A DNA stretch of 64,000 nt from Neckera pumila. Its lineage: Eukaryota; Streptophyta; Bryopsida; Hypnales; Neckeraceae. The position numbers and the translations under genes are program-made. Below the pieces are notes generated by a model. The model searched no databases, was not told where the DNA came from, and worked only from the letters and a program-made list of their open reading frames with translations. The stretch lies in assembly GCA_963969595.1 (NCBI GenBank), contig OZ018409.1, forward strand, positions 6,896,520 to 6,960,519, in the 5' to 3' direction. Shown in pieces: positions 1-43,469 of the stretch (position 1 is its first letter; every line of letters starts with the position of its first letter).

Positions 1-177
1 CAATTTCATCAAAATTAGTTCTAAAAATTATTCAAAGTTATCAATGATGACAACTTCTACTTAAAATATCATCACTTTCAATGAAAAAGTTTTTAAGTCA
101 TCTAATTTAAAATTCAACAAAGGAGAAAAAAGCATTGGTTACATGAGTTTTTTTGTGCTTAATTAAGATGAAATGAT

Positions 178-716: not shown

Positions 717-724
717 GAAATGAT

Positions 725-1491
725 ACATTATAAACTATGTAATAGTAAAACATGACACTATAATATTTGTGAAACATGAAGTATGCTTATTTTGGAGAAA
801 TCTAAAAAATTTGAGCTACACAATCAATAATGGTAAAAAAAAAGCATTAGCTAACCATAAATTAGTAACACAAAATATTTAAGCATTGAATCAATGTCAA
901 TGAAAGAATATCATCTATCCACCAGAAACTGAGCCACCGGAAACTCTACCCTGACTGTTGAACAGAGCTTCTGGCCTAATACTACTCTGGTTCACATGTC
1001 CTCGTGGAGTAAAATCAATGCTAACAAAATGAATTGAATCTGTTTCAGCTCTCACTAGAACTTCCTATGTCGATCTAGCAGGCTTCGGAAGCAGACAGAC
1101 TCGCTCCTCTATTTCACCGGCCCAGACTTCTTCAACTACAAGACAGTCGGCGTTTTCCTTCACCATCAGAGCACGTACTCAGGTAGCACACTTGCCTATA
1201 ATTAATATCTTCTACCCCACACTAATTGAACAAGTCATGTGAACGCCGAGCTTGGCATCTTTCACAAAAAAGAACTGATATTCCCGGGAGCTCACTATTC
1301 CTAGCACCAAGCAAAGCCAATACTACAGTGAAACGGGCGAAGTCGACTCGAACTGATAGATCGACACCATCGACCCCGTCCGATTTCGACTAGTAGCAGC
1401 AGTCGATCGATCGCAACTCCCAAGGCCAATCAGTAACTTTTTGAATTATTTGCTAATCAGCAGACTTGCATGCGGATTAGGGAGGGTCGCC
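725..1491. other. 3' flank of the peroxidase gene, no gene seen
   Basis: Intergenic sequence downstream of the peroxidase stop codon. It contains a moderately GC-rich stretch (about 1070-1430) with repeated TCGA/GATC-type words. No coding region, RNA gene or clear repeat end was recognised. The part closest to 1491 probably holds the peroxidase 3' UTR. Confidence 0.4.
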
Positions 1492-3769: not shown

Positions 3770-3800
3770 TTTCAGTTTTCTGAGTAGCACCAAGATCATA

Positions 3801-3804
3801 CACT
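3801..3804 (-). promoter_or_regulatory. Probable 5' UTR intron acceptor of the peroxidase gene
   Basis: On the minus strand a pyrimidine-rich tract followed by TTACACAG lies about 33 bases upstream of the chosen ATG. This is a good 3' splice site and suggests a leader intron between here and the TATA box near 4120. The donor was not identified. Confidence 0.35.
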
Positions 3805-4118
3805 GTGTAAGAAGAAGGAAAAATCAAAACAGGGGTGAGAGTGCCGATCAAATCACATCTCAGTTATTCTTCTTCCTAGTCAAAGTATCAAACGTACTGC
3901 TAGTACTGTACTGAGCTCACAGCTACCGAGAGATGCAACAACTAGTGCCATCCTTTACTAGAATTATGACATTTGTGACTGGAAATATCAAAATAAGCGC
4001 TAACTCACGATGGATGAAAGCGCTGGAGGGGAAGTAGTACGCTTGCTAGATATGATCAGACTACTGATCGACTGTGCAGGCTCTGCAAGCAATGGCTTTC
4101 ACAATGGAAACCCGTTTC

Positions 4119-4126
4119 ATATATAG
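4119..4126 (-). promoter_or_regulatory. TATA box of the peroxidase gene
   Basis: The minus strand reads CTATATATG about 350 bases upstream of the start codon, in a less AT-rich stretch than most of the window, so the match is not simply compositional. It would place transcription start near 4090 and leave a leader of roughly 300 bases that may be spliced. Confidence 0.45.
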
Positions 4127-4374
4127 CTAGGGGGTCCGGAGCCATGGGAGCAAAACTTGCAACCGTGTGCAGATTTCAGGGATTCGAACTGCCATTGGCC
4201 ATTGCAACAGTCAACTACAGTGGTCAACCTCCAAATTATCAACCAATTCTATATCCGGGATGGAATCTCCTATTTCCTTGGTATCGGCACGTGCTGGCCA
4301 TAGTTTAACAGCATCGACGGAGCCAACTTCCCGAATTCAGTGTATTTAAGCTTCACGAACTCACCGACCCAATT

Positions 4375-4515
4375 TTTGTTAAAATGGCGGATTTCAATGA
4401 AATTGACGAAGCTTCAGACAAGAGTTCCCTGAAAACTCAGCTATCTACACAAATCCTTGTTTCGGCAGTAAAAAGACACGATTTCGGAGCTTTGAAATAC
4501 GTCATTTTAACGAAT
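4375..4515. mobile_element. Short MITE, AAAATGGCG family
   Basis: The left end TTGTTAAAATGGCGGATTTC and the reverse complement of the right end TTCGTTAAAATGACGTATTT form an imperfect inverted repeat of about 22 bp bounding 141 bp. The same termini occur at 7241-7564 and 9018-9160, and single ends occur near 2500-2515 and 3409. No coding capacity. No convincing target duplication was seen. Confidence 0.55.
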
Positions 4516-7240
4516 GTCACCATCGTACTGCTCTTGATATGAACGTTCTCTGAAGTGAGGTCATTTATGTCAAAGCAATGTCACATTACAATCTACACTG
4601 GGAATGGATGAAAAGTACTGAAAACCTCATAGTTGTGAATAAGATAGGTTTCAATGAAACTAATTGACAAATGTTCTTCACTTGACTAAAACCTTAATCT
4701 AAACAAGCCTTGAATCAATGTTTCATATTTTCAAAACCTCTTGATTCCTCCGAAGCACATCGCTAAACTAAATTTAGATGCATTGTAATAGATTGCACTT
4801 GTGCTGAAATCTTATTCAACTGTGGAATGGAATGTATTTTTTGAGTGCACTGATGGCAATGTTCTGAGTCTGAAACTGCCTATCATTACTAGGTTTTGGT
4901 TAATTAATTTTGATTAATAATGCCTAATGTATTTCCTTGCATGCTGATCATTTACGTCATTTTCTCTTACGGAGTGAAGAAATAAGAGTAGTCTTCAATC
5001 GGTGCTCTTTACGATTCAAAAAAAGGACTTATGAGTGTTGAAACTTTCTGCAGCAAGGGAAAAGAGATCACATCCATGTTCATATTCGTTACATTAGAGT
5101 AACTTCACAAAATTGGTGCATCCGAATTCTGAAAAGAGGGCTCTTACTCGGACCCAAGCAATTTCAGACACCCATCTAGCATTGGATCAGTTTAAGACAT
5201 TCATCTAAACTCTCATACCGATATCTGTATTTGATTTTAGATATATAATCTAAATATACTAGATTTTAGAGCTCCAGCGTTTCAAAAAGCCTCTCAACTA
5301 GGAACAGAAGCGGATTTAGGCCACTTACTCATCTGAAATCTGAGATGACATTGAAATCTCCTACATATATTCTGCCTAGATTTTAGACCACAAAGGTTTC
5401 AAAACCCATATGAACATTTGAAAGTCCTTATTTTCACCTGGCACATTTTGGCATAACCGAATACAGGATGCGGTTATGAGGCTATCCTGTGCTCCAGTCA
5501 TACAAGACCTCTTAACTTTTTATAATTCTCCAGACAACGGTTTCGTAAAAAATTATACACTGAATCAGTTATACGTTTTTATCAATGACGTTACAGATTA
5601 AAACAACCTAAGTAAATTTTTTTATTTCTTTGAAACGAATCTTGGCAAAGGTACCTGGTTACATTGCTAGTGAAAGACAGAAGATGAAATGCGGTATTTT
5701 GGGCGAAATCGCAGAACCCCAGGTCGAGGACATGGTTAATTTTCTTTAAGCTCCATGGATCCTTCCACCTGTACCCAAACCCGGGGATCGGCGTAGCACA
5801 TGCAGTGTTGGACCAAAAATTAGAGGAGCTCCGTAGAAGGTGGCTAACCAAATCACTGGTGATCTGGCTCCAAATCTTTCTGAAATCCTTCCATGAAACC
5901 CAAAATAAGCCTTCAATTGACCGTTTATGGATTGATCGATGCTCGTTACGCTCGTAAATCTTCCATGATGGAAAAGAGACAGAAGGTGCTGAAATGCAGG
6001 ATTCTTCTTTGACCAATTACAGATACACTGTTCAATGCTTGCTTTTGAGGACACCTCATAACCTGCATTCCTTGCCGCCTTGGTACAGACCATGGCTGCA
6101 ACTGTGCAATTGATTATTTTATGGGTGAACTTGTAGAAATACCCTAATTCATGCTCGGAGTTTCCCTTTCAACTGGAACCTTTTCGGAAAGCCCAGCATG
6201 GAATCTTTATGACTTGCGGATGACTCGGAATGAAAATTAGGTCAAATCAAGACTTCTATCATTATTCGTATCTAGACAGATGTGCCACTGTTCATTTGGC
6301 TTTCAAGGGATCTAAATCAGCCTGTAACCTGCAGTCCTGCACACGAGTGAGGGCAGTTTCGGTATCCCGGAACTCCCCAAGCTTTCAGCTGAAACTTTTT
6401 ATTGTTTAATTCATTTAAATTGAATGATCAGTAGCCTTTAATGAAGGTAGAAGAAAAAACAAACTTAAGGAGATCAATCCGGATCCCAGACAAGCCTGGG
6501 TCATTCAGCTGAAATTGATCAAGAGAATATTGCGTTCTTCTTGCATTGCAGATCTCTTAGTATCATTGTTATTATAATCTGCGTTGGTTACATCTACTTG
6601 ATTTGAAGAGTTTTTGAGGATCTGCTCTCCAAGCGTTAGTGATTACGATCGATTGTGTGATTGTGTCTGTCAAACGTCAAAATTTATTTGGTCACTGAAG
6701 TCCAGAGTCCAGATGTGCAAGGAAGTTCTTTCAGTCTTCACAACCAAGCTCCAGAATTGAGTAATTTAGGAGAAAAATCCGAATGAAGCAGCTATGATTT
6801 TAGATGATCGGATGGAGGAGCAAAATAATCTCCTCGAAGCTCAGCATAAGAAAAAATCCAACATCAATACCCGTTAGAGTGGTGAATGTCACGACTTCGC
6901 ACTATTCAGAGAGCCTGAAATGGAAATCTATACCAGTCCTAGTTTTTGAGCTGTGTGAAGATGAATTTCACAATTTTGGGGCCCAGAATCGCACCAGTTT
7001 AACAAAATTGACAATGAACACAAAGTGGGGAGTGGATATGGCTTACAATGCAACCCCTCTTGTTTAATTGCTGACTGGTCATTCTAATTCTTCCTTGTGA
7101 TGACAATATGTTTAACAGGACCTGTGATGTACGGGCTCAGAAGTTTCTCAAAATTCACCCTAAAATGACTCAAGCAAGCTAGCCCCTCTTGTACTTCAAT
7201 TGCCTTCGACATTCAACCAAACTGCCCAGGACCAAGAAAG
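4516..7240. other. Intergenic, no gene recognised
   Basis: About 2.7 kb of mixed-composition DNA. Short open frames exist on both strands (for example 5746-6093 minus and 6804-7067 plus) but show no family motif, codon regularity or splice context. No RNA gene or clear repeat ends were found. Confidence 0.4.
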
Positions 7241-15600: not shown

Positions 15601-16004
15601 GAAACTTTGGCAAACTTCAGGAAGTCTAACCTCCCCCAATGTTGCTTTTGCCATAAAATGGTCGGCTTATGAACCTCAAACATTCAATTTTGAGAACAAA
15701 AACATGTAGGGTGGACCACAATCTTCAGCAGACATTGTAGTTACGGAATTACACACAAACATTTGGAAGCTGTAGTCGTTGCCGGCAGTTTCCGGTTTTG
15801 TCCCATTTTGTGTTGTATCTAGTTTATGATAGGCAAATTGTAAGGGTGAGGTCGGATTTATGACCGACGAGACTCTTTTGTTGTGGGTTGTTGTACCTAT
15901 GGTAATTCGGAAGTGATGACCGGTGCACTACATAGTTTGGTGTTTTTGCAGATGCAGGTTGCCCTAAACCTTTAGATAGTTGCAGGTACCCAAATAGTCC
16001 GTCT

Positions 16005-17586
16005 ATGGTGCACACTAGAAGTCAATATTATTGATCTCCGTCACCAGACTATTTTGGAGGATATCCACATCGACAACTTTGAGCCAGCGGTGGATATCAG
16101 CAAGGCTTTTGAGCATATTTCGGCGTTGGATACCACTAGTAGGCTTTGAGTTGGGAGTGTGGATACACTTCACAAAATAGAAGACGATCACCGCAATTCA
16201 ATGCGTGATCAATTCTTGGGGCGTGCTAGGGGCATTTCTTTACCAGATTGGAAGCTCCATTTTTGCACTTGGATGAAGGAGAAGCGTCAGAGGTCATCCA
16301 GTTTTAATGACTAGCATGCCTTTGAGCTTCTACTTCAGCATTTGGAGAGTGAAGCTCTTCAAACATATGAGCAATGGACAGAGGCCAATTGGCTCAATCT
16401 TCAGCAAGTTGAGCAGTATTGGGAGGCTCAAATAGAGCTTATTACTGCTCTTAAAGAGGGCGCTACATCTTCCTTGTTGCCTTCTGAGACTGCAAGGGAG
16501 ACAAAGCTTCAGACTTCTTTTGAAGAAACTTCTGAGAAAGATACTAAAACAAAGTAGTTGATGCCTACAAGGAGGCAAGAGAGCGGCTAATTCATTTCTT
16601 GGATGGCACTAGCTACCCAGGCAACCCTGCAAACCATTGGGCCACCGCTTGCATTTGAACCGCTATGGTTATTTCTTGAGCATCTGGATGTTGAATACGG
16701 AGGCTTTTGTCGGGATTAGATGCAACGGATCCAAGACTTCAAAAGGGAGAAGGAAGATACTCCGAGGATCATATATATTCATTTGGCTCGCTTTGCAATA
16801 GAATACGGAGGTGTTTTTACTGAGAGCCAGCTGGTCAAGATCTTTCTTTCAAAGATTGATAAGCGGTTACTTGATTTGGCTTCACCGCAGATTATTTTGG
16901 ACTATGAGGATAGGGCCACTTTGGCCCAAGCCTTCTCAATGGTAGAGAGGTGTGATCAAGCCCTTTGTCAGCACGATGCTACAGACATGGTCTCGTGGAT
17001 GGCTGACACTTCAAAGTCCAAGAAACCTCCTTCGATTTTTGGCAATTTGGCTTATTTAACACCTGATTGCTACTTGCATTGCTGGCGTTGTGGTGAAGAT
17101 GGACACACCAAGAAAGATTGTCCAAAGCTTTCTAAAAATTCGCCTCAGCCTTCACAGTCTAAGAAGAAAGAAGAGATCAAGGCTGAAATGAAGGTTGAAG
17201 CAAAGCCTAAGAAGAAGAAGAAGCTAAAGTGCAATTATTGTAGCCGTATCAATCATGATGATGATCATTGCTTTTAGCTTCATCCCAAATTATGGCCTGC
17301 AAGTTATGTGTCAGCTAAGTCACAGCGGGAAAAAACTCTTAAGGCTAAGGTTGTAGAGCTTGAGCAGAAACTTAAAACTTCTGCATCTCTTGCCCAAATC
17401 TTTGAGCCAAGAATAGTTCCTAATGCTCTAGATTCTAATATGTATATGTTTGGAGCATCTGGAGAGATGGTAGCAACGGTTGCAACTTGTGCTCAAACAA
17501 CGGGGAAGTCTATAACTTCCACAAGCAATGATAGTAGTGGACATTCACAAGTTCGTCACAATGGTCCAGCAGATCAGATTGGCTAA
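16005..17586 (+). pseudogene. Ty3/gypsy gag (nucleocapsid), broken
   Basis: Structural protein that packages element RNA. The ATG at 16005 opens MVHTRSQ, a common gag start, but the frame shifts within ten codons. The following reading carries TGA at 16147 and TAG at 16312, and another shift near 16553. The central part (16720-17050) shows the retrotransposon gag pattern with LARFAIEYGGVFTE and FLSKIDKRLLDLA. Two CX2CX4HX4C zinc knuckles follow: CWRCGEDGHTKKDC and CNYCSRINHDDDHC, separated by a Lys-rich linker. A TAG at 17275 interrupts just after the second knuckle, before the LHP phrase; the frame then continues with a coiled-coil-like stretch (KAKVVELEQKLK). Confidence 0.85.
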
Positions 17587-18060
17587 GCACAATTGCCTTT
17601 ATCGTTTGGCTTGGCTGATGTTGCCACTACAACTAGGACTCCAAATCCTTTATTTTTTAGAGATGGTGATTCCATTTCAAAAGATGTTATGCAATCTTTG
17701 GCTCACAAGGTGTTGCAAATGCCAATCTTCTCTGGTTTAGAGTTGATGGCACCAGGCTTTAAGTCTACATGAGTTTTTCATTTGGCGGGGACTATGTTAG
17801 AAGGAACAACGGATTTGCCATCTCTACAAGTCTCACAAACTGTTATTGAGATGCCTTTGGTTGAGGATGTTGAGGAATTAGCCAAATTACCGTCTAAGCT
17901 TGCAACTAAGATTGTTTCTGCTTTTGAAGGGCACAAAGACATCCAATCTTCAGTATATTCATCTTTAGACATGTCTCTTGTGACATGAACAGCTTATCTT
18001 GCAGATGTTTTTGCAAGACCCGCTCGAGAGCGTCAAAATTTATGACCTGGAATTGTTCGC

Positions 18061-18492
18061 TTGATGAATGACAATGCCATTTTTGTCGTTTCACGCACGG
18101 ATAGTCATACTATTACTACTATACCACTAAGAGTTATGATGAACTCAAGTGCACAACCAATTATGATTGTCAAGCAACTTGCTGAGGCTCTTGGTTTGAC
18201 AAATGCGGACTTAGAGCCTTGTCCCTTTACCATTGTGACTTTTGTGGGAGGCACAAAGCATGCCACATGTTATACTAAGGAGCCATTGCATTTGATCTTC
18301 CATGTGGGTGTAGGACCTACTTACTCACATTTCTCTGTAAGATGTACAGTCACGGGAGTTATCAACTATGATATCTTAATTGGTCAACAAGTTCTTTATC
18401 CTCTCGGTTTTGCCATTTTGGTTTGGATAACTGAACTCAGGAGGCATGGATTAGACCGGGTTGGTCTTCAGGCAACGGGAAGAAGCAATTGA
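18061..18492 (+). pseudogene. Ty3/gypsy aspartic protease, catalytic Asp lost
   Basis: Retropepsin-type protease that would cut the polyprotein. The expected D-S/T-G active-site triad is replaced by Asn-Ser-Ser at 18142-18150 (MMNSSAQP), so both the catalytic Asp and the following Gly are changed. The second conserved block (NYDILIGQQVLYPLGF) is intact. The region ahead (17587-18060) is a poorly conserved linker with stops. A TGA at 18490 separates this part from the DNMT-bearing section. Confidence 0.75.
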
Positions 18493-18810
18493 TTTCTGTA
18501 GCATTTGCAGCGGCTGTCATAACTATGTCAACAGAAACTATGTTTAATTGCAGTGCCTTAACAACAGATTTGTCAAGTGCACCACTTATATTGGAAAAAA
18601 CTTTTGCACATATTTGCAGTGCAGAAGAACAGCATGATTTGCTACCTTACTCGTCAATTCAAGGTTTCACTTCCACCATGGGATACTTGTAAAGAATTAT
18701 CTCAACATTGCCTCCATATTGTAGCATCTCTAAAACCTTTACAGATTCCTTCTACTTCATCTCTATCCCCCTTTGTCCAACCGATTGATTGGCATCCGCC
18801 ACCTGAAGGG

Positions 18811-19773
18811 ATTACTCTTGTGGAGCTATTGGGGCATTGACATTGATTTGGCAGCAATTTTGGAGGCTGGGCTTAAAATTAGGTAGTACATCCATGTGGA
18901 TAATGGATTTGTATCCAACCGAGCGACCCGACATCATCTTCCAAGGTTGTTAGCGCTCTATCCAGAGCAATTGCCAGCTTCTGGCATCCATGGTTGTTTT
19001 GGCCAACTTCCTCGAGATGTTACTTTCATTAGTGATAAAGATTTGAGGAGGTTGGGCCATATTGATTTACTTATTGCTGGATGGCCTTGCCAAGGTCATT
19101 CACAAGCTGGAGCCAGTCAAGGCTTGGATGACCCTTGGTCTAGTCTATTTATGGACTTGATGCAACTCATGCAATGGTGGTTTACACATCAATCAACTCC
19201 GCCAGCATACATTTTTGAAAATGTACCTTCACTAGGTGATATGCGGCAGAAGGTTGTAGAAGATGGGTATTACGTTAGCCAATTTCTTGGTTCTTCAATC
19301 TTTGCAAATGCTGCAACTTTGGGTTCTTATGCCCACCGGCCTCGTTGATTTTAGACAATTTGGCACCATCACCTGAGCTTTCAACAACACTTGCTCAAGT
19401 TCCTCAACTTGTGGATCACAAGGTCGATGATATTTTAGATGATCATCATATTTCTTTGGATGTTTTCAAAAATGATGCGTTGCCACTTGCAATAGTTAAC
19501 AAGGTGGGAGCCCCTCAAGGTGCATTGCCTATTTTTGTGACATATCCGAGATCTTATGCATTTCGATCTCGTGGGCCAAGCATGGTTTGGGATTCACAAT
19601 CTCAAACTCATGAAAAGCCTATTGCAGATGAGCAGGAACGTGCCATGGGCTTTTGTACGGGCACCACAGCTGCCCATGATCTCAAAGAAGGTCAAAGACA
19701 TTTTCTTTTGGGCCAAGCTATGGATTTCAATATGCTTATGTGGATTGTTGGCACTTGTTGTTCTATTCAGCAA
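18811..19773 (+). pseudogene. Retrotransposon-encoded C5 DNA methyltransferase
   Basis: Would transfer a methyl group from S-adenosylmethionine to cytosine C5. Motifs in canonical order: motif I region LVELLG, then after a frameshift near 18830 IDIDLAAILEAGL; a motif II-like VDN (18894); motif IV GWPCQGHSQAG with catalytic Cys (PCQ at 19085-19093); motif VI ENV (19217-19225); motif VIII-like HRPR (19334-19345); motif IX-like ADEQERAMGF (19624-19653); motif X-like GQAMD (19711-19725), with Gln where host enzymes usually have Asn. A TGA follows HRPR. Motif order is not permuted, which argues against a plant DRM origin. Length is about 320 codons, a bare catalytic domain with no BAH or chromodomain. 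It sits between protease and RT within one polyprotein region. The fold is clear; specificity (CG or other) cannot be read. Confidence 0.88.
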
Positions 19774-20124
19774 TATAATGATGGCCAATTGATTACTCTG
19801 AGGACAAAGAGCAATAGTCAGGGGGCAATGGAGCCACAATCCAAGCTTCACATAGAAGTCGAGGAGTCTGAGGCACTTTTTCGTTTAAAGCAACATGCTG
19901 AGGAAGAGCTTCAGGCTCAACGTGTTTTTACTACTTTGGCCCAAGATTTTGGAAAGATGAAGGCTCAAAGGATGCTTCCACGACTATTTCTTCGTGACAT
20001 TTCACCTTTTGATGGCTATCTAGCTTTACGGACTGGTTGTAGTGGAGAGGCTTCTCATTTGGCTTCAAATGTAGATTCTGGGGGCAAAGAAGTTGTCCCT
20101 TCCATGGATTAGCAATCACAAGCC

Positions 20125-21621
20125 GTGCTAGTACCAAGTAGTGATCCTTTTGTGGAGAAGGAAACCATAGAGTTTGATAACTGGCCATTGGAGTTGAAGC
20201 CACATCTTACTGGTGCCGAAGCACAAAGGGTACGGGCATTTATTTGCTCGGATCGCAGTTGTTTTGCCTTTAGCCTCCAGGATCTTGAAGGCTACAAGGG
20301 CAAATCCGTTCATATTCATCTTGAGGACGACCATCCAATCTTTAAACGGCCTTATAGGCTTAGTGCATCCAAGAAGGTGGGTGTTCAAACTCGATGCCAT
20401 GAGTTATTAGTAGCGGGAATGATTGAACTCTCTAATGGAGAGTATGCTTGTGCTACGGTTATCCCTTCAAAGAAAGACATCCTTAGCAATTGGACAGAAA
20501 ACGGATGTGTGGTGACTATTGTCCAGTTAATCGTAAGACTAAGTCAGACCAATATCCAATGCCAATGCCAGAGGAGTTGTTTGATGTGGTGGGATTTTTT
20601 CGAGTTTTTAGCACTTTAGACTTGAGATCTGGTTATCATCAATTACCTCTACTTTTGGGAGATCGAGTGAAGACAACATTTTGAGGAGTTGATCAAGATG
20701 GCAAAGATCAACTCTATCATTGAAATTTTTTGCCATTTGGTCTCAAGAATGCACCAGCTGAGTTCTAGAGGGTGATGGACCGAGTATTAGCCGGCTTGTC
20801 ATTTGCTAGGTGCTATATTGATGATGTTATCATCTTTAGTAGTCCACAAGATCACGTGAGACATTTGCAAGCAATGTTTGAGCGGTTGCAGCAGTAGCGA
20901 CTACGCTTGCATCATGGCAAGTGCAAGTTCTTTCACGATCAATTATCATATTTGGGCCACATAATTGTTCCAAAGGTCTTGGTGTACAACAAGCAAAGGT
21001 AGATGCTTTGCAAAATATCCTAGCACCTAGCGATGTACCATGGCTTCGTGCATTTCTTGGCTTGGCAAATTACTATTGTCATTTTGTTAGAAACTTCAGC
21101 TTATTTACCAAACCTCTTACTATTCTTACAGGCAAGGATCAGCCATGGACTTGGGGACGTGAACAACAACATGCATTTGATATGTTGAAGCAGAGGCTCG
21201 GTTCAGCGCCAGTGCTTTGACGCCCTGATGTTTCTAGATCCTTTCAATTGCACACGGATTGGAGTGCTGTAGGCCTGGGAGCAGTATTGACACAGAAAGA
21301 TGAGAAGGAAAGGAGTATGTTGTGGCTTATGCATCTAGAAGCAATAATAGTGCAGAATCTAACTATTCTTCATATGAAGGAGAGGCTTTGGTAGTAGTTT
21401 GGGCCATTGTACACTTTTGGCCTTATTTGTATGGTCAAAGATTTACTTTGGTGACTGATCACCAACATTTGAAATGGCTTATGGAGTCAAACAAACTTAT
21501 TGGCAAGCTTGCTAGGTGGGCATTATTGCTCCAAGAGTATGATTTTGAGGTTGTACATCGAACAAGCATCACTAACTTGGATGTAGATGGACTTTCACGC
21601 AATCCAAGTCTTTTAGACTAG
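20125..21621 (+). pseudogene. Ty3/gypsy reverse transcriptase and RNase H, broken
   Basis: Copies element RNA into DNA. RT begins near 20200 (FKRPYRLSASKK) and shows CATVIPSKKD, LDLRSGYHQLP, NFLPFGLKNAPAEF and the catalytic box YIDD at 20814-20825, intact. The thumb/connection has FLGLANYYCHFVRNFS. RNase H follows with HTDWSAVGLGAVLTQ, SSYEGEALVVVWAIVHF and LVTDHQHLKWLM, ending at DGLSRNPSLLD. Frameshifts near 20490 and 21310 and stops at about 20682, 20766, 20896 and 21218 break it. The region just upstream (19780-20112) links DNMT to RT and is Gln/Glu-rich. Confidence 0.92.
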
Positions 21622-21837
21622 GATTTGACTAGAGTCAGGTGGCACGGGGACTGCAACAGAGAAGCAGTTCCAGGTTGGCATGCAGCCTTTTATCTTATAT
21701 TGATGTTAGGATCTACTTCTGAAGCATCTATTGAAGACCAAGATGAAGAGTCTGACAAGTCTCTAGTTGTGAGTGATGTGTAGGAAGATCTTGCAGTCTT
21801 GCACAAACTTCAACAAGGGACATTTCCTTTAGCTATC

Positions 21838-23072
21838 TTTGCTATGGAGCGAGATAGATTTAGTCATTGAGCAGCAAGGTTTCATTGAGATAACGATTTG
21901 CTATTTCGTATGTGGCCAGATGGAACTAGGCGCATGGTTCCAAGGCCAGATCAGAGAGCTTCTTTGGTGCGGCAAGTTCATGAAGATCTTGGACATTTTA
22001 GAGTGTGCAGGACACATTCCATGTTGCGCAACCAATATTGGTGGACTAGCATGTATCAACATGTTGCCACTTATGTTTCTCGGTGTGAGGTGTGTGATCA
22101 AGTTAGGTCAAGTTTTAACACATTATCACCTCAGTTGAGGCCTTTACCTATCATGGGCTTGAGCTATCGTTGGTCTTTGGATTTTGCTGGGCCGCTTGTA
22201 GTCACCTCACGTGGAACTAAATATGTATTGGTGATGGTAGAGCATTTTAGCAAGTGGATCGAACTTGTGGCTCTACCACAAAATTTGGCAGAATTGGCGG
22301 CTAAGGCTTTTTTTGATCGTATTTTGGCACATTTTGGAGCATCTGCTGAGGTGTTGACGGATCAAGGACAGGAATTCCTTGGTTCATTTGAAAAATTGTG
22401 TACTAAGGCCCTAATAGATCACCATACTACTTCTAGAGATTATCATGAGGCAGATAGCTTGGCTGAATGAGTTGTTCAAATAGTCAAGCGTGGTTTACGA
22501 AAGTATGGATTGCTTTGTGGCAACCACCATGATTGGCCTTGATGTTGCCATGGATTGCTATGGGCTATCGTTTCAGCAGGTAAGCTTCATTGGCGTCTTA
22601 TAGCCCTTACCAATTATTGTATGGCCGAGAGCCAATTTTATCCAGCTCGGTACGCAAGAAATTGGCTTCAGTTGTGAACTTAGATGCTCTTGATATTTAG
22701 GCTCAATGTCTTCATGATCGAGCAGCGTTTTTCAAAAGAGCCATGCCAATGGCTATGGAGAACTTATCTATTGCTCAACATCATGATACTTTACGTTACG
22801 CCCTCATTTGTAGCGGCGCTTATCGACCTCAATTGCAGAGATTCTCTAAAGGAGATTATGTATATTTGCAGCGTGAAGCGCCTACAACGTTGGATGTTAA
22901 GGCAGAACGTACTATCCTTCGAGTGAAAAATATTTTGCCTAATGATATTTTGCTATTGGAAGGCAAGGACGGGCGAGAGTGTCAGGAGCATACAAAAAAT
23001 TGCGATCCTTGTCACTTGCCCATTGATGGCATTGTACGCCCCGAATTGGCAGTGGTACCAGAAGGTCTTCCT
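21838..23072 (+). pseudogene. Ty3/gypsy integrase, broken
   Basis: Would insert the DNA copy. The zinc-binding HHCC domain reads HEDLGH ... CEVC (21979-22095). The catalytic core has D in WSLDFAG (22180), D in LTDQGQEF (22360) and E in ADSLAE (22465), followed at once by TGA; 34 residues separate the second D from E, close to the usual 35. All catalytic residues survive. After several stops the C-terminal part resumes at 22743 with GDYVYLQREAP, the beta-rich integrase tail, then a small Cys/His cluster (ECQEH..NC.PC) leading into the PHD finger without a break. Confidence 0.9.
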
Positions 23073-23207
23073 TGTTTTGTTTGTAGAGAGAAGAAAGGTG
23101 CGGCTACTATGTTATTGTGTGATCAGTGCCAACATGGTTGGCATATGGCATGCTTGACTCCCCCCTTATCGACTTTGCCTCCACGAGATTGGATTTGTCC
23201 TTGTTGT
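23073..23207 (+). pseudogene. PHD finger at the C-terminus of the gypsy integrase
   Basis: Zinc-binding histone-tail reader module. The C4HC3 pattern is complete: CFVC, CDQC, HMAC after GW, and WICPCC, within the open frame 22743-23249 (residues 111-155). The block CLTPPLSTLPPRDWICP resembles PHD fingers of the AIRE/BHC80 type that bind unmodified histone H3 (family knowledge; binding here is inference). It occupies the position where chromoviral integrases carry a chromodomain. The frame ends 14 codons later. Confidence 0.9.
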
Positions 23208-23249
23208 CGGATCTCTTTAGGTCATGCTACGTCTTTAGACAGGCGCTGA

Positions 23250-23612
23250 AGATGTTTAGAGAGACAAACCACTTATGCTCATGATGACAGCAATGCCATT
23301 TGAGTTGACTAGACGCCAAATACATGGTGCAAAAGATTGTGATTTGGATTAGAAATTGACATAGAGATTCAGCATCAAAAAAAAAAAAACTTGCTGAAGG
23401 TGATTAAGGATGGGGCTCCCTATTGCACCCAGCCTACAGTCTCTTGTTACTCCAATTTGAACTCACTTTTGCACACGTCGGCTAACCCACGACCTCAATT
23501 TAGATGTGCAAAGCTGTTGTATAGATATTTCAACATAGCATTTGAATCCAACAACATTTGTTGTGTAGTCCTAGCTACTTGTCGGAGCGACATTGTCGCT
23601 AGGGGGGGCACT
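23250..23612 (+). other. Gypsy 3' noncoding tail and polypurine tract
   Basis: Sequence between the last codon of the PHD frame and the 3' LTR. It holds an A13 run near 23380 and ends with AGGGGGGGCA (23601-23610), a good polypurine tract for plus-strand priming, directly before the LTR start. Confidence 0.6.
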
Positions 23613-24129
23613 TGAGAAGGTGTTTTTTACACTCTCTTATGTTGATTTTGATTGATGTTTTGATTGACGTTTATAATTACACAATGTGTTGTGTATGGCA
23701 ATCTATAATTACACGACAGGTGTCACGTAAGGTGACATTGGGGCCATTCTACATCATATTGTTGTATTAGATGAACTTCTAGATGAGTTCAGATTAAATG
23801 AGTATTAGATGAACTCCTAGATGAGTTCAGATTAGATGAGTATCAGATGAGTTCATTTTACTTTTGGATGAGTTTCATCTAAATGTTAGGGTTCATCCAT
23901 CTTAGGGTTTGAGTGTTTAGGTGGAGAGAGCTCCTTGACTTGACATTGTTGTCAAGTCAAATTTTGTGAGCGTTTTGAGAGAGAGTTGTATTTTTAGTTT
24001 TGTTTGGAGATGGTGGATTATCATTTAGTAAAGCTTCACTTTTTCTCTTACGTTTCCACTCTTCGATTCTCCCTTTGTGGAGTAAGAGTTGCTTGACTTT
24101 GTGTGTGTGTTGATACAATAGTTTCTCCT
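23613..24129 (+). repeat. Gypsy 3' LTR (about 517 bp)
   Basis: It begins TGAGAAGGTGTTTTTTACAC just after the polypurine tract. Its first 100 bases are repeated at 24130-24231. Internal short tandem copies of GATGAACTCCTAGATGAGTT and close variants occupy about 23770-23870. The 3' end is set by the start of the second copy and does not finish in a clear CA, so it is approximate. Confidence 0.6.
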
Positions 24130-24231
24130 TGAAAGGGTGTTTTTGACACTCTCTTATGTTGATTTTGATTGATGTTTTGATTGACGTTTATAATTACACG
24201 ATATGTTGTATATGGCAATCTATAATTACAC
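24130..24231 (+). repeat. Second, truncated copy of the gypsy LTR start
   Basis: TGAAAGGGTGTTTTTGACAC and the next 80 bases repeat the LTR start at 23613 with a few differences, then similarity stops after ATTACAC. It lies head-to-tail against the first LTR, leaving an LTR-LTR junction with no element between. Confidence 0.7.
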
Positions 24232-24364
24232 AATAGCTTTCAACATTTTCAAATAGAGTTTCCAAGAACTGCTCGAAAAATCTAAGCTCCAAATTTCTTT
24301 TATGCTTGATGTTATAATTTGTTGTGCAATTTTTCACAAAGTCCTCCTCGAGCAATCCCTTGAG

Positions 24365-25089: not shown

Positions 25090-26400
25090 AGCATTATGGA
25101 TAGATAGCTGGACCACTCCTCATTGGATTAGGGTGAGGCTTGAGGATAATACTAGCATGCTGTCTGTTTGTATTGAAAACTGTGTAAGGTAGTGGTTTAG
25201 TCAAAAAATCAGTATGTTGAATGTGAGTTGGGACATGACTCACCTATAAAGTGCCTGCTTTTGAGACCTCTCTAATGAAATGGTGTTGAAGGTTTATGTG
25301 TTTTGTTCTTGAGTGCATGACTAGATTTTGTACAAGCTTTATACAAGACTAATTATCACTAAGTAAGGGAGTAGGTGCTACTATTTCCAGACCTAGTTCT
25401 GCTAGAATACGTCGAAAACATATGATATCTTTTGCTGTATCCGTAAGTACACGATATTCAGCCTCCGTACTGGATAGCTCTGATACTATTGGTTGCAATT
25501 TACTGGACCAAAAAATACTTGAGTCACCTATCTTGTGAAGAATGCTTGATCTGCAAGGATCCAAGTCACGGCCCCAATCGGCATCTGCGTACATATGATA
25601 TTCTGTAGTATTGTCAGTTGGAAAGAAGGTTCCATAGTCCATTGTGCCGCTGAGGTACCTGAGAATTTTCTTTGCTGCCTTGAAGTATTCTAATTGGTTG
25701 GTCTATATAACATGAAACGCAGCTTACAGCGTATGATATATCTAGGCAAATATGAGATAAGTATAAAAGATTGCCCACAAGAGAACAATAAAACATAGTG
25801 TCAGCTTTTGCTGTATCCATATTCTCTTGCAACTAAATTTTTAAATCAAAAGGAATAGCAGTGGGATTACAGTCTTGAAGATCAAATTTCTAAAGTAATT
25901 TTTGGATATAGCTAGGTTGATTAATGAATATCCCCATTTTTTGTCTATGAATTTTGACTCCCAAATAATATGTTGCCTCTCCAAGATCAGTCATTTCAAA
26001 AGAACCTTGAAGTTTGAGTTTTAGTGTTGCGATTTATGAGTGATCATCCCCAATAATTAACAAGTCGTTAGCATACAAGAGTAAAACGGTTAATTTTCCA
26101 TCTTTTCTTGAAAAATAAAGATTGGGGTCACTTTCACTGCGTGATAATCCATGACTGAGCAACCAAAAATTTATACATTTGTACCATGCTTTCAGTGCTT
26201 GTTTAGGTCTATATAAAGCCTTTTTGATTTTACACACCTTAGTTTGATCTCTAGCTAATGGAAAACCGTCAGGGATTTCCATGTAGATATCTTCATTGAG
26301 TGTTTCGTTTAAAAATGCATTGACTACATCCATTTGTAATAGCAGCCAATTATTTTTGGTTGCCAAAGCAAAGAGAATAAGAATTGTAGATCACTTGACG
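25090..26400 (-). pseudogene. Copia reverse transcriptase and RNase H, broken
   Basis: RT shows LLLQMDVVNAFLNETLNEDI, MEIPDGFPL, CKIKKALYRPKQA and LLLYANDLLIIGDD. The second position of the catalytic Asp pair in the usual YVDD box is Asn here (YAND), so the polymerase would be inactive. RNase H shows MYADADWGRDLD and SSTEAEYRVLTD, then HSRTKHIN and an HV.T..Q.AD-like tail. Stops occur at about 26036 and 25833, and near 25349. Confidence 0.9.
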
Positions 26401-26669
26401 ATAGGTGTAAAAATGTCATTGTAATCAATCCCGTACTTTTGTTGAAAATCTTGTGCTACGATTCTTTCTTTAAGCTTATTAAAACCTCCTTGCATATTTT
26501 GCTTAATTTGAATATCCATTTCCTAGTTATTGGAGCCCTTCCCTTTGGCCGATTGACAATCTCCTACGTCTGATTTTTCATAATGGAGTTTATTTTGCTG
26601 CCGATCGCTCATTGCCACTCTTGTTGTTGATTTGCAGTATGAAAGTCAATGGGCTATTCTAAAATTTTG

Positions 26670-28330
26670 GAGACTAATGTCCAAAAATCTTGTAGTTTAA
26701 TTGAGGGATTTTTATTCCTGCTTGGATAGCGTATGCCAGCGGTCCAATGGCTCTGTCTATAGGAAGCGGCTTTTGTGGACTTTTGCTTGGGGTTCGGCAA
26801 CTGGAGGCAGCAGAGGAAAGATCAAAAGGTGAGAGGTCGGATTGGTTGTTGGAGCTAGGAGTCAAGTTAGGGATCAAGTTAGGCTCTATGCTAGGTACTT
26901 GATCTAGGCTAGCCTCTGGTGAATTATGATCTGGAATCGGAGGTACTTCTATACTGACGGGGTCTCTGATGGCTGGCAATTCCAAAATTGGAACTTGTAA
27001 CATATCTTCAGATGAATCATGGCAAGTCAAGTATTTGTAGCCAACCCTTTGCTCATCAAAAATAGCATTTCTACTTATGATTACCTTTTGGCGGATTGGG
27101 TCAAAAAGACAATAAGCTTTGGTTTCATTGTCGTAACTCAAGAATATGCATTTCTGCGTTTTACTATCAAGCTTATTGCGATATTCTCAAGGTACATGAA
27201 CGTAAGCCAAGCATCCAAATATTTTGAGATTGGAATATCCGATTTTGTACCTGTAAATTTAGCTTCGGGAGTCTCTCCATGATTTGCACGTATAGGGCTA
27301 CAATTTATCAAATAGGTTGTTGTAGCAACAGCTTTGGTCCATAGATAGATTAGCAAGTGGCAGTCATGAGACATACTACGAGCTCGTTTTAGAATTGTTT
27401 GATTTCGCCGTTTTGAGACACCATTTTGCTGAGGAGTGTGGGCTTGTGTGAGTTCCCTTTTGATCCCATGAGTTGATTAATAATTGTTGAATTCATCCGA
27501 CAAATACTCTCCACCACGATCTAATCGCAAAACTTGCATCTTGTTGCCAGTCTGTACTTCAATGTGCTCCTTGAACTTGCGAAATTTTGAGAAAGTTTCA
27601 CTTTGGGCCTTCAAAAAATATGTCCACCTTTTGCACAAATAATCGTCTGTGAAAACGAGAATATATCTTGACCCACCTAAGGATGGTTGTGGCATTGGGC
27701 CCATAATTTCACTATGTATACGTTAACCTGGTTTCTCAGATCTGGTGACTGATGATTTAGGAAATCTTTCCCTGTATTGTCTCCCAGCCAAATAGCAGTG
27801 ACATATTTTCTTTTGATAACTAATCAACGAAAGTCCAATTATTGTTGGTGAGTGAGACATATATTGTAGTCCCTCATGACTCAAATGACCCATGCAAAAA
27901 TGCCAAAGAAATGATAAGTCTGAATGATTTATAGTTAATGCATGATGGATAGATTGAAAATAGTAGAGGCCATTAGTTGAGTCTCGTTGCCCAGTTGCAA
28001 TAGTTTGGTCATAATTATCAATAACCAAGCGTTGGTGATCTGAGAAGACAACTCGGTATCTACAATCCGAGCCACAATCGGCAAGAGCTTCAACTGAAAC
28101 CAAATTCTTTGTCATATTTGGCACATATTTAACTTCATTCAATTTTATTGCTCTAGTGTTTTTTTGAACTGTTGCAATACCTGAGCCCTTTACGATACTC
28201 CCTTCCGTACATACTTCCTTAATCTGCACTCCTGGTGTATTGGGCTGCGAGTCCAGCTTCTCATAGTTTCTTGCTACATGGCCAAAAGCCCCACTATCTA
28301 TATACCATGGCCCATTTCCCAATGATAGTA
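26670..28330 (-). pseudogene. Copia protease and integrase, broken
   Basis: Protease motif WYIDSGAFGHVARN is intact near 28310. The integrase zinc region is altered (WHFCMGHLSHEG then CHCYLAG, with only one residue between the Cys pair). The core has FTDDY and LRLDRGGEYL, but the catalytic Glu of the NGVxER block is Lys (NGVSKRRNQ, near 27410). A Pro/Ser-rich linker (26674-27141) joins to RT. Confidence 0.88.
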
Positions 28331-28389
28331 GGGATCATAGTAAGGAGCATAGTACTGCTATACTATCTGAGACTCAAAAAACTCAGCAG

Positions 28390-29322
28390 AATTTGCAAAT
28401 CTCGTACCTTGTTGTGATGGTGGTGCAAAATTTTCTTGGACAAGCAAAGGGTTTGGAGCTGATCTGCAATCTTGTGCAAAGTGTCCAGGTTTACCACAGT
28501 TGTAACATACTAGTGGTGGTCGCAGTGATCCAAAATAACTTCAGCCAGGAAAGGTGTGATTAGGGAAGCTCCGTCCATGAAATCCTCTTCCTTTGTACAC
28601 TTGTGGCCATCTGCCACCTCGTCCCCGATTTGGTGTCGATGAGTTCTGGATTGTTGTTTATTTGGTGAAGCTTGCCACAAGAGCCTCTGAGTCTCCAAGT
28701 TGTTGATCACGATATTTACGTCGATGTGACTCTGAAAGTAAGCTAGAGCTGAGTTTCTCGAAAGTCATAGATTCATTGAGATGCATAAGAATTTGGACAA
28801 TGCTCTTGTATGATCTCGGCAAGCCGTTGAGAATAATTTGATTGAGATTTCGATCTGTCATTTTTTCCCCCATACTAGCAAGCTTGTTCTTGAGCCCTCG
28901 TGCTTTCTTGAGATACTCCTCGACTGAACCTCCTTCATTCATCTTGTGAGTTTGTAACTAGCTCATCAGTGTCAATATCTATGACTGGTCTCCGGACTGA
29001 AATTGGTCCTTGAGAGCTTTCCATGCAAGAGCTAGGTCTGTGAATTCTGCAATCATGTCAACAAGATTGTCAGATACCAATAATATGATCAATCTACATG
29101 CTAATGTCTTCTTCTGTTTTAGCTTGACCTTGGTCAACGTGCCCCGTCGATGGTAGCCGGAAAGTCATTGGGGCTCACTATAGTTTCCGTAACAAACCAT
29201 TGGTTTTCTGCTCTTAGTATGGCTCGCATCTTGAGAGCCCAATCGTAGTAGTTGGTCATCCCTACAAGCTTATCTCCCTCTCTGATCGATAAACTAGAGT
29301 TTTCTGTCATATTGTCTAACAT
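28390..29322 (-). pseudogene. Copia gag, broken
   Basis: The N-terminal part reads NYYDWALKMRAILRAENQW, the common copia gag start. A later block has GGSVEEYLKKARGLKNKLA and LPRSYKSIVQILMH (UBN2-type gag). The zinc knuckle CYNCGKPGHFAQDC (28466-28507) has the full CX2CX4HX4C pattern. Frameshifts occur near 28940 and 28690. Confidence 0.85.
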
Positions 29323-31200: not shown

Positions 31201-33429
31201 TCATTGTAGCATCGGAGTGTGTGTTTGTGGTGTGTAGGTCTATTTGCCTTCAAACAAACTCAAAAATCAGCATTTACAGAGAAGGGAATTCACCATCACT
31301 TTTTGCGCCAATCACTTGCGCTCCCACACCATGAGATCCTGACTCCGGACGATCGTCCATTATTATGATTCTGCTTTTTATGAATAAAATGAAGTTAACA
31401 AACTTGCTATATTCATGTATGTCATGCAGGAAAAGCTAATTCACACTACATGGACCAGTTCACTGGAAGGCAACGACTCTCACTTGATCAGTTCACGTAG
31501 TCTTCAAGCTTTGCAGATCTATCGCTATTCACGCCACTGTAGCGATTCTAGTCAACCAAGCACGTACAGATTCGAACAAGGCACAAAAATTTGGTGGGCA
31601 CATACGGATGCGATGAACACAGAGGGATTTCAGGAGTACAGACCAATTCCATGAAGACGGGGTCACTAGTTGTCATGAAGGTGGTATATATCAGTCTGTC
31701 CACATTTAATTGCACGCATCTCTTGTGGGGTCCAAGCAAATAGACAACAGTGTTTTCTTTTAAAGCCCATGCCGGCTTCTTAGGTAGTGGCACTCTTTTC
31801 TAATCAGCCATCAAGACCCACATTAAATAACACCGCTCTTCCACTTCTGAAATCTTTATTTTGCTTGATTCTTGTGTTAGCTTTTATCTGCAAGCTATGC
31901 CGCTTCTATTGCAGCTTGGTCGTAGTTTCTTTTACTAACCACTTGCTTTTATCTTGTGCTAGGTGCCCCTCCAGCATAGGCATCGCAGATCTAAACACAC
32001 AGACTTTTCACACTAAAAAACTGCCTTGCGACCTTAGCCTTAAGCCCAAGTGTATACATACTATTAGTAGTGAAATAATGACTTATAGCAAGCCATTTGG
32101 CAGCTTTGCTTGTGTTTTATCCCTTTTGAAACAATAACACCATTCTATTTTGCTTCTTTTGAGGTTATGGTTGTGACATATTTGTAAAACAACATGAAAT
32201 ATTGTAGACGGGAAAGTCAAGAAAATTTGGGAAAGTAAAGTGCTATCCTTGCCTTTCTAATGACATTCACGATTGACTAAAATTTCTTGATTACACTTAA
32301 AGATATAGAACAATTGAATTTGAGTACACATAAGGCCATAATTGAGTTAGTGAATAGTGATAGGTTCTCTTTAAAAATTCAATTTTTCAACTACCAGTAT
32401 TTCATAATAGTGGAAGACACCAAGATACCTATCATTATTCCTTAGTGATAGCACGTAGTCTTCATTAATGCAATTGATATTTTGCTTTGAAGAAACAATT
32501 AACAAACAATGACTCATTAGTGCCAATATATATGAGAGGTATATATGGTGCAATACTTGAGCATGATAAAGTTTAGATGTGAAATGACATTAAAATGAAA
32601 GATGCTAATTGTTGAATTATCAGTCTAATGTTTGTGTCATACAGTTGTGTCACATGGCTTGCCACATTTTAGTGAATAATTCATATTCTAAAAGTTAAAT
32701 ATGGTATTATACATTTTTCCACAACCTACAATAGTTAAATTCTTTGCAAAAATCAAGTTTATGAAGTCTATTAGTCTCACTCACATTGTTAGAACTTAAT
32801 AAAATCAATGTAGCCTCTGTAACGTAACGCAACCAACCTTCAAACATAAAGAACCATTTTGTGCAAGATGAAATGTTCCATAGAAATAATTTTCCTTTCT
32901 AGTGAAATTGATTTGGAAGATTCATAAATCTTATTAAAGTTAAAGGTCCAGTATCTTGAAATTCAAGTATATTATATGTGAACTTGGTTTAGAAGAATAT
33001 TAAACAAGTTTAGAAGGTTCTTAAATTAGTAGCACATTTTGGTGACATTGCTTGAAAATTCTTGAACTAGCTTGGAATCATCATGATATTGAATTTGCCT
33101 TTTTGCAAACTCCACTTATCAAAGAAATAATTGAATGTAACAATACAAGGTACTTAAAATGATTTATGATTTTGATATTTTTCAACAATTTAAAAACATC
33201 CAATTCTTTCTAAGAGTACTTTTTTAATAATACTAATTTATATGATAGTATAGAGGTGCTAACATATTGAAACATAAATGTGCAGTAACCTTGGGGTTCA
33301 CTAGCCCCTAACATAGAAAAGACATGAAAGATAAATTAGGGTACTATAAAATCCTTTCACCTAAGTTTTATAAATTAAGTAGATATAATTAAGCATATAA
33401 AGGTATAAGACTTGGAGGTAAGTAAAAGT
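31201..33429. other. Intergenic, no gene recognised
   Basis: AT-rich beyond about 32.1 kb. Short open frames at 31415-31654 and 31787-32137 have no family motif. No repeat ends or RNA genes were identified. Confidence 0.4.
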
Positions 33430-33651
33430 CACTATAAGAAAATGGGGTGTTTTAAGTGAGTTTTTAATTATAGTCCTAGAGATTACATTTTAAGTAATGA
33501 CCTTTAAAGAAATTTTCAACAAAATTTTACAAGAAATACATGTATTTCTAGTAAAATTTTGCTGAAAATTTCTTTAAAGGTCATCACTTAAAATGTAATG
33601 TCTAGGACTATATTTAAAAACTCATTTAAAACACCCCATTCTCTTGTAGTG
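33430..33651. mobile_element. CACTA-type foldback MITE
   Basis: Nearly the whole 222 bp is one inverted repeat centred on ATACATGTAT near 33541. The ends read CACTATAAGAAAATGGGGTG and, reverse complemented, CACTACAAGAGAATGGGGTG, the terminus typical of plant CACTA elements. The flanking 3 bases are AGT and AGC, close to but not an exact 3-bp duplication. A transcript would form a long hairpin. Confidence 0.75.
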
Positions 33652-34831
33652 AGCATAATAAGGTTCACCAAAAAGAAAAAAAGAAAAAATATTTTCTTGT
33701 AGCATGGCAGTAACTACAGGCAATCATTTTCTGAATTGCTTGATTAGTATATATCAGTTGCATAAGGTGCTCCAAAATAAAGGATTATTGTATTCCATCC
33801 CATGTATTAGATGAGCCGATTCTGGATGAATGCACCATTTTCAAACTTTATGAGAGGCATATTGTTCATACAAATTTCATTTTGCTCCTTTTGAACATGT
33901 ATTTTGGAGGATAAATAAAGCATAGTTCACGTTACATAGAATTGTGCATTGTGAATCTGGGCTTATATTTGTTTCAAGCCAAGATTGTGAAGTTGAACTT
34001 ATGCTTGGATGCACTATTAAATGAAACCCTCTAAACCATTGAAATGCATTTTTCTAGTTTTCCTTGGATCTTTCATTACTTGAAGCTAGAAACACAATAT
34101 CAATGTGCAAACTCATGTTGAATGTATGATGCCTTTTTTTATGTAACTACTATATACATCTTTCGAAATTGAGTTAATTATTGAAATAAGGGATACCAAA
34201 AAATAAAATTTATAATCAAATTAGGATGGCATTAATATTAATATTTACTCTTACATTTTTATAATTTCCATAAAAGTTACACATGTTGGTATCAATATTA
34301 AACTAGATACTTATAGGATGCCTTAAAAAAATTAAAAAAGAATGTAATCCCAAATAAAATATCTATGTCTCACATGTGGTGTACTATATTTATGCTAAGT
34401 ACCCCTAGGCAATACCACAAAGGTAGAGTCTTAAACCGTCACTTTAAAAATCCTAATGTCTAAAGCCTCAAGCTTTTCACATTCATTCCTTCAATATTTC
34501 ACATATTGCAACCATTTCTAATATTGAAAGGGCATAGGACAAATACAAGAAACGTTGAATTGAAAACATTTGTTTCCAATGTCTTATGCTATTATAGAAT
34601 TGCGCTAGTCTATTGTGTATATTTATGGCATACTACCATTAAATAATACAACGAATGTGTCAAATGAGTCAATACATATCAATGCTTTAATTCCTTAGTA
34701 CTTCAAAGTTTGTATTCTAGATTACAATTAATATTTTCTAAGAATAAAAATTTGATTATTTCTTATACAAATTATTTTTTTTCTTAGCAGTATGAAAAAG
34801 ATCCATTTAGTTATCAATGCCAACATAGTGC
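33652..34831. other. AT-rich intergenic, nothing recognised
   Basis: No coding region, repeat boundary or RNA gene was seen in this stretch. Confidence 0.4.
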
Positions 34832-42246: not shown

Positions 42247-42352
42247 TTAGCCCCTAAAGGACCATTATCCCTTCGGGGGACAAATGCGTTTTCGGGCATG
42301 TACCTATGGGCTGACATTTTCTCCTAATTTTTTGAAACTTTTTGTGGATGTG

Positions 42353-43200: not shown

Positions 43201-43469
43201 TGATTATAATTGTGTACATAGAGTGATGTAATTTCTCAAATGTGAGTGAAATTAATTGCACATGCTTCAATTTAGGTGCCACAAAGTCGATTCATGGCTT
43301 CTTGGTGCTCATGAAGTCGATTTTGAATGCAAATTATGGACTTTGGAGATTCTTCTCATTACCAAATTTGACCTACTTTTGTTTCAAATTTCACCCTAAA
43401 TCCTGATTCAATGATGTAAAATTGACAAATTGAACACCCACAAATCCAAATTGAAGAATCGTCGTGAAA

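Follow-up and report, generated by a model that had tools for sequence, protein, structure and literature searches.

A DNMT3-type methyltransferase carried by a Ty3/gypsy retrotransposon family in the moss Neckera pumila

We analyzed a 64-kb stretch of the Neckera pumila genome (contig OZ018409.1, positions 6896520-6960519; the whole stretch is called the window below). On its forward strand, at about 15820-24242, Pfam and tblastn delimit a Ty3/gypsy retrotransposon. Sequence comparison shows that its family carries a DNMT3-type C5-cytosine methyltransferase (DNMT) as a gene of the element. The order is gag, protease (PR) and DNMT, then a UAG-CARYYA stop, then reverse transcriptase (RT), RNase H (RH), integrase (IN) and a PHD finger, with relatives in green algae and liverworts. 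The window copy is a degenerate member, in a land plant, of the KnitGypsy-Dnmt3 kind of element described from Klebsormidium nitens (PMC5890265). Our best overall explanation has a probability of about 0.6: the DNMT3 is an element gene made at the level of Gag and packaged, it methylates the new copy, and the PHD finger steers integration.

The methyltransferase domain and its copies in the genome

The first-pass annotation of the window, made from the letters alone, had read a series of methyltransferase motifs between the protease and the RT. A chance motif series is ruled out by a Pfam match to PF00145 at 18887-19348 (E 4.6e-14). PCQ (19085-19093) and ENV (19217-19225) lie where they were placed, while motif I is only partly legible. 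HRPR is present, ending at 19345 and followed by TGA; the motif IX/X block is also there but in another frame, in an open reading frame (ORF) that extends to 20109. This second piece (19348-20109) has no Pfam match by itself and was recognized by 50-62% identity to relatives. The position between protease and RT holds with one correction: the DNMT is encoded in frame with gag and PR, ahead of a conserved UAG (20110). The gag-pol flanks were also read correctly, given a CCHC gag, RNase H and integrase by Pfam and a colinear tblastn match to a complete relative. The PHD finger after the integrase was absent from the earlier domain list.

That relative (L010) was the one strong match in a scan of prokaryotic genome contigs. 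It is a 9285 bp contig labelled as part of a cyanobacterial metagenome-assembled genome (CADCWO010000201.1). From its gypsy content we infer a eukaryotic stray, probably bin contamination. Its two ends share an identical overlap of 127 bases; the assembly is therefore circular, which can happen with a multi-copy repeat. Gag, PR and DNMT lie in one intron-free open frame (3-3488, running on over the point where the circle closes). A lone in-frame TAG separates it from another frame (3492-6632), which encodes RT, RNase H, IN and PHD. The L010 ORFs match the window colinearly by tblastn over 16057-23231, with a gap without match at 19999-20112. Identity is 76-83% in the pol pieces, 69% and 53% in the DNMT pieces, 47-49% in the gag and protease segments and 38% in the linker before the DNMT. 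The L010 DNMT has the canonical, unpermuted motif order, its best match is DNMT3 and its fold is that of DNMT3. Motif order and score both disfavor a DRM origin, the DRM exons of the host (L048, L050) being permuted. A bacterial or phage origin was rejected: a scan of IMG/VR gave nine loci with 30-53% identity over short stretches only, and the genome-contig scan gave, besides L010, two Streptomyces loci with 44% identity over 34 residues.

Searches of the moss genome itself covered 339.5 Mb in 18 contigs. One DNMT piece had 54 matches, a count that includes the window and some fragments of one copy. Ten loci (L023-L032) were fetched where additional DNMT matches lie. Nine of them have a protease match ahead of the DNMT (the exception, L029, begins within the DNMT), and nine have RT behind it (L028 has none within 3.8 kb downstream). 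The search for further copies therefore returned the same domain order in those fetched, and its recurrence in 9/10 loci on each side bears out the earlier proposal that the DNMT is cargo of the element. The copies belong to several subfamilies.

PF00145 matches 36 places in this genome. Reading of translated exons gave nine possible host loci: two DRM-type (L048, L050, with permuted motif order), five DNMT3-type (L057, L064, L067, L068, L070), one CMT-like and one unassigned. Over 50 residues, the DNMT3-type exons share 38-44% identity with human DNMT3A and 34-40% with P0106, a database relative with RH-DNMT-IN architecture. With the DNMTs of the window and L010 they share only 24-36%, which makes recent capture from this host unlikely. 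The first-pass annotation had named grouping with a host gene as one outcome that would overturn its reading; no close grouping with host DNMT3 or DRM exons appeared, in a comparison of only 50-80 residues. Insertion of a host DNMT gene or pseudogene by chance into this single gypsy copy has a negligible probability. The host does have DNMT3-type loci of its own, whose identity to P0106 is near that to DNMT3A, but their low identity to the element DNMTs, the 54 genome matches and the shared order in the fetched copies and L010 speak against it, and the other copies refute a single insertion.

The catalytic residues, including the Cys nucleophile, are kept in nearly all of 70 aligned DNMT rows. 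The Pro of motif IV is replaced by Glu (as in WECQ) in 25/70 rows, and the Cys column is kept in 67/70. Between the window and L010, the ratio of nonsynonymous to synonymous change (omega) is about 0.10 for DNMT (320 codons), 0.10 for PR, 0.05 for RT, 0.03 for IN and 0.18 for the gag N-terminus. These values point to constraint on the DNMT between lineages.

The stop codon between methyltransferase and reverse transcriptase

In the window as in L010, the stop that divides the DNMT and RT frames reads TAG CAATCA, which fits UAG-CARYYA, the consensus given for type I readthrough in PMC3542737. In tobamoviruses, too, CARYYA directly follows the UAG, whereas here the signal separates gag-PR-DNMT from RT-IN in a retrotransposon. 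We examined this junction in 18 own-genome loci (L015-L032, L015 being the window copy) and in L010. L018 ends before the junction and L028 has no match to the second frame (ORF2) in the 3.8 kb after the DNMT, which leaves 17 readable junctions. All 17 carry TAGCARYYA. A script called 16 of them in frame with the head of ORF2; the junction of L021 reads TAGCAATCA and is in frame with the first frame (ORF1). The hexamers are CAATCA (10), CAACCA (4), CAATTA (2, of which L027 also has CAGCCA) and CAACTA (1). They vary only at positions that the consensus permits, in subfamilies whose DNMTs are 44-57% identical to that of L010. The junction stop is the only stop in its frame in 7/17, and the in-frame motif arose in 0-2% of resampled segments (first-order Markov, 500 trials each). 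The 17 ORF1 proteins from the 18-row clade of the window end 65-145 residues past the DNMT. Together these sequences suggest a conserved leaky-stop signal, with the enzyme made together with the shell proteins of the element.

Several results count against a functional signal. At 10/17 junctions the frame is otherwise broken by stops or a frameshift, so that 'in frame' refers there to one side only, as expected of decayed copies. TAGCARYYA alone is common, with 4 occurrences in the window against 4.8 expected by chance. In other relatives a single frame holds both DNMT and RT, so the leaky stop is not general. A 3' stem-loop that might stimulate readthrough is not conserved between L010 (z -2.8) and the window (z 0.5). 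Chance occurrence of the motif and the many other stops of this copy would also fit a UAG at 20110 that is just one more stop of a decaying pseudogene. We consider that very improbable, since intact L010 and all 15 other readable own-genome junctions have the same stop with CARYYA, even in subfamilies whose DNMT shares only 44-57% identity with that of L010; these shared junctions refute a private mutation. A scan of viral contigs for the junction pattern gave L013 and L014, neither with a tblastn match to the element.

Relatives, domain orders and published elements

Relatives came from a protein database with 5.8 billion entries, in which the window piece gave 17 relatives among 31 candidates, the DNMT region of L010 at least 37 (7992 scored) and the L010 pol ORF at least 971 at E <= 1e-50 (7993 scored, 120 listed). 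Counts below cover 174 proteins taken from the matches listed. Named hosts of DNMT-bearing proteins among these matches are Marchantia polymorpha, Calypogeia fissa, Klebsormidium nitens, Closterium and, with a partial match, Tetrabaena. The Marchantia proteins are public as hypothetical proteins. With Marchantia and Calypogeia, the reach toward land plants that the first-pass annotation had suggested finds support. The pol search also gave Haematococcus (P0137) and Riccia (P0140) proteins in which no DNMT was seen, both too short upstream of RT to judge.

A DNMT profile matches 96/174 proteins. Of the 118 proteins that the pol search added, 41 match; in many of the other 77 the ORF starts in or just before RT, where a DNMT would not be visible. 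Among 16 proteins with RT and at least 400 preceding residues, 14 have a DNMT upstream of RT. A second order, RT-DNMT-IN-PHD, occurs in 32 of 157 proteins (P0018-P0174), and PR-RT-IN-PHD without DNMT in 2 of the same 157. The sole host-named protein with the second order is from the chlorophyte Tetrabaena (P0158). A chlorophyte branch of the family is only possible, because it depends on this one named protein with its partial DNMT match.

For the more careful DNMT tree we dropped 10 of 71 rows for long branches or odd composition (P0141, P0124, P0156, P0099, P0113, P0136, P0107, P0150, P0173 and P0174). The root is one half-length fragment of human DNMT3A. The window DNMT falls in an 11-row clade with L010 (support 100/100), beside P0028 (95/95). 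Marchantia and Calypogeia DNMTs form a 9-row clade (100/100) that joins the larger group of the window at 96/63. P0067 is a long branch, and its placements in the DNMT and RT trees disagree.

The trees bear on whether the two domain orders go back to one acquisition of DNMT3. Separate captures by the PR-DNMT-RT and RH-DNMT-IN groups, rather than one capture with later relocation, have a little under an even chance. The DNMT sits at different places in pol, and independent capture has a precedent in PMC5890265. In the DNMT trees the PR-DNMT-RT rows fail to group as a single clade and several stand near the base, under a root that is a single half-length fragment. Set against this, the RH-DNMT-IN rows are one group (97/79), and the RT tree shows a single change of DNMT position among its 40 labelled rows (of 96). 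The DNMTs of P0106 and P0119 (both RH-DNMT-IN) are also 36-42% identical to those of the window and L010, versus about 30% to the first-half DNMT3A fragment. The fullest single-origin reading combines one acquisition near or before the chlorophyte-streptophyte split, relocation within pol in one branch, placement ahead of a leaky UAG in the land-plant branch (giving a Gag-level writer, alongside a histone reader), and self-marking of the complementary DNA (cDNA) before or at integration. We regard that combination as unlikely. Both gradings reflect the scattered PR-DNMT-RT rows and host DNMT3 exons that are about equally close to P0106 and DNMT3A.

As described in PMC5890265, KnitGypsy-Dnmt3 resembles the present element in its gypsy pol order (PR, RT, RNase H, DDE integrase), in an intronless DNMT3 inside gag-pol (an intact frame in L010; colinear and broken in the window) and in split direct repeats of DIRS type. 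The authors of that paper infer an independent capture within the K. nitens lineage. A K. nitens protein among our matches (P0109, KFL_009030040) has the order PR-DNMT-RT-IN, and its DNMT is 35% identical to the window and 44% to L010. The present family differs from that description in its land-plant host, the PHD finger after the integrase, the UAG-CARYYA between DNMT and RT, and the second domain architecture in the wider family. Relative to the published description, then, the conserved UAG-CARYYA, the PHD finger and the second domain order appear to be new. The words PHD, moss, fern and lycophyte are absent from the main text of PMC5890265, whose supplementary trees may hold land-plant members. 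In further literature, represented mostly by titles and the openings of abstracts, we found no land-plant DNMT gypsy family and no account of its PHD finger or leaky stop, and prior mention is possible.

Two other published elements are comparable. The dinoflagellate element SymbioDIRS-Dnmt3 (PMC5890265) also has a DNMT3 in a retrotransposon polyprotein and A-coding-B-A-B repeats, but uses a DIRS tyrosine recombinase where the present element has a DDE integrase (PF00665, PF17921). An orchid Ty3/gypsy element with an AlkB m6A demethylase (PMC9289625) is likewise a plant gypsy with a captured nucleic-acid-modifying domain; it differs in the enzyme, in using an extra ORF and in its angiosperm host. 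The screen behind it covered 121 angiosperm genomes, and DNMT is not named in that account.

Possible role, element ends and neighboring sequence

A PHD finger follows the integrase in 97/97 proteins that have both, and 85 fit the full C4HC3 pattern. Its neighbors in sequence and fold include the PHD fingers of CHD4, UHRF1, BHC80, BAZ2 and ATXR5, many of them solved with H3 tails; by analogy, the H3 tail may be the ligand in the element. Chromoviruses similarly carry a chromatin-reader module behind the integrase. Here, unlike in chromoviruses, the module is a PHD finger, and Pfam finds no chromodomain in 22701-23249 (E 0.1).

The element anatomy suggests the following life cycle. Most ribosomes would stop at the UAG and make gag-PR-DNMT at the level of Gag, and a minority would read through to full pol. 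The protease would free the DNMT, which would be packaged with the shell proteins and methylate the new cDNA or the fresh insertion. The methylated copy could then arrive already bearing the marks of host-like or of quiet chromatin. Integration would be steered by the integrase's PHD finger, through its reading of the histone H3 tail.

Other observations weigh against this explanation. The published enzyme activity is that of the dinoflagellate DIRS version (PMC5890265). P0112 and P0118 have no detectable DNMT, and 9 of 106 proteins with at least 200 residues after the integrase have no PHD match. Synonymous divergence between the window and L010 is near saturation (proportion of synonymous differences 0.72 in the DNMT). 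Among eight close own-genome copies the median pairwise omega is 0.71 (0.47-1.36, 28 pairs); these copies drift after insertion. The element is poor in CpG (0.46), but a neighboring copia element is nearly as poor (0.50) and the rest of the window stands at 0.54-0.65, so that no enzyme can be named from this depletion.

The DNMT might instead be retained mainly to tame the element: it would methylate and silence the element's new copies, and the host would tolerate the element as a result, a matter of restraint rather than protection. The CpG-poor window copy, the drift of the eight close copies and the CHH and CHG methylation reported on silent KnitGypsy-Dnmt3 copies (PMC5890265) would all fit. 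Old copies of any family should decay, though, and a direct benefit to the element more readily accounts for the purifying selection on the DNMT between lineages, which is about as strong as on the protease; we rate taming as rather improbable. Less probable still is that the DNMT domain targets RNA or serves the particle by binding nucleic acid, DNA methylation being incidental. Production with Gag would suit such a role, and possible RNA methylation is discussed for a LINE version in PMC5890265. The catalytic residues, Cys included, are nonetheless kept in nearly all rows, and the L010 fold is that of DNMT3.

DNA methylation is a standard plant route to silence transposons. A gypsy family carrying a DNMT3, with catalytic residues kept over deep divergence, would turn this silencing around. 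With the liverwort relatives and own-genome copies, a case read as confined to one algal lineage becomes a family found in both streptophyte algae and land plants. The leaky stop makes the amount and destination of the enzyme cheaply testable, and with them its role in the life cycle of the element. Bryophytes are tractable hosts for asking what self-methylation does.

The window copy itself is a dead pseudogene (Table 1). It has 8 frame changes relative to L010 by tblastn and 25 in-frame stops, counted in slightly overlapping tblastn segments. Its broken RT pieces have no Pfam match, and RT was seen by tblastn with L010. Where L010 has CG, the window has TG or CA in 134 cases, against 26 in the reverse direction; this excess is as expected of methylated, decaying DNA, and overall base composition also differs. 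The copy is also 5'-truncated: aligned by blastn with own-genome copy L041 from its left repeat (A1) onward, it matches only from 15885.

Seven own-genome copies were fetched for their ends. Four have B-A-B at the right end (one cut to A-B by the limits of the stretch), four have A alone at the left end, and three show both ends as such; the remaining ends have single, partial, inverted or no repeats. The left A covers repeat positions of about 108-517 and the right end 1-108, 108-517 and 1-108. This layout is that of split direct repeats, A-coding-B-A-B. The window keeps B1-A2-B2 at the right and has lost the left A. We had considered 24128-24242 as a second element copy and dropped this, since it is repeat B2. 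A1 and A2 differ by Kimura two-parameter distances of 0.059, 0.057 and 0.112 in three copies. With substitution rates of 5-9e-9 per site per year, which may be unsuited to this host, these correspond to roughly 3-11 million years. Target-site duplications, judged by eye in four copies, are suggestive only: two are exact and 4 bases long (ACTT; ATAT), one has a one-base shift and one copy has no clear match. The ATAT duplication is simple sequence, at a right end with a single B.

Table 1. Features of the Ty3/gypsy element in the window
Feature	Coordinates	Strand	Evidence
5' leader, surviving 3' part	15820..16056	+	blastn to L010 8415-8972; left repeat A1 and first part of leader absent
gag region, CCHC zinc knuckle at ~17077-17127	16057..18045	+	tblastn with L010 ORFs; PF00098 E 4.9e-05
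Aspartic protease region	18046..18489	+	Weak Pfam match by itself (E 0.038); protease regions of nine best relatives 59-66% identical
DNMT3-type C5-cytosine methyltransferase domain, broken in two frames	18803..19770	+	PF00145 E 4.6e-14 (first piece); 69% / 53% identity to L010; tree
UAG stop and CAAUCA, putative type I (CARYYA) leaky-stop signal closing the gag-PR-DNMT frame	20110..20118	+	L010 comparison; own-genome junctions; consensus as given in PMC3542737
Reverse transcriptase, broken	20368..21010	+	Three pieces, 76-83% identity to L010 ORF2
RNase H	21304..21618	+	PF17917 E 2.8e-26
DDE integrase (H2C2 zinc finger and rve core)	21889..22467	+	PF17921 E 2.7e-16; PF00665 E 3.8e-12
PHD finger, C-terminus of pol	23073..23207	+	PF00628 E 1.7e-9; relatives; model of L010 PHD region and fold matches
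Polypurine-tract-like stretch	23597..23610	+	20/20 bases from 23597 same as L010, into repeat start
Repeat B1	23611..23718	+	23611-23725 91% identical to 24128-24242; split-repeat layout of other copies
Repeat A2	23719..24127	+	Layout of other copies
Repeat B2, right end of element	24128..24242	+	91% match with 23611-23725; layout of other copies

The copia neighbor is a degenerate Ty1/copia pol adjoining the gypsy element at 25352-28957 on the reverse strand (RVT_2 E 6.8e-25, Pol_BBD, gag_pre-integrs). Also on the reverse strand are an LBD gene (45514-46942), with a LOB domain (PF03195) across two reading frames that are probably two exons, and a peroxidase exon (1495-1920; PF00141 E 2.3e-22). 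The LBD gene and the peroxidase exon fit a land plant. A forward-strand ORF at 9514-9987 matches DUF4283 (E 4.8e-8). Direct repeats of about 418 and 503 nt with 92-95% identity lie at 41660-43203, and long self-complementary stretches at 33429-33652 (93%) and 35935-36724 (76%).
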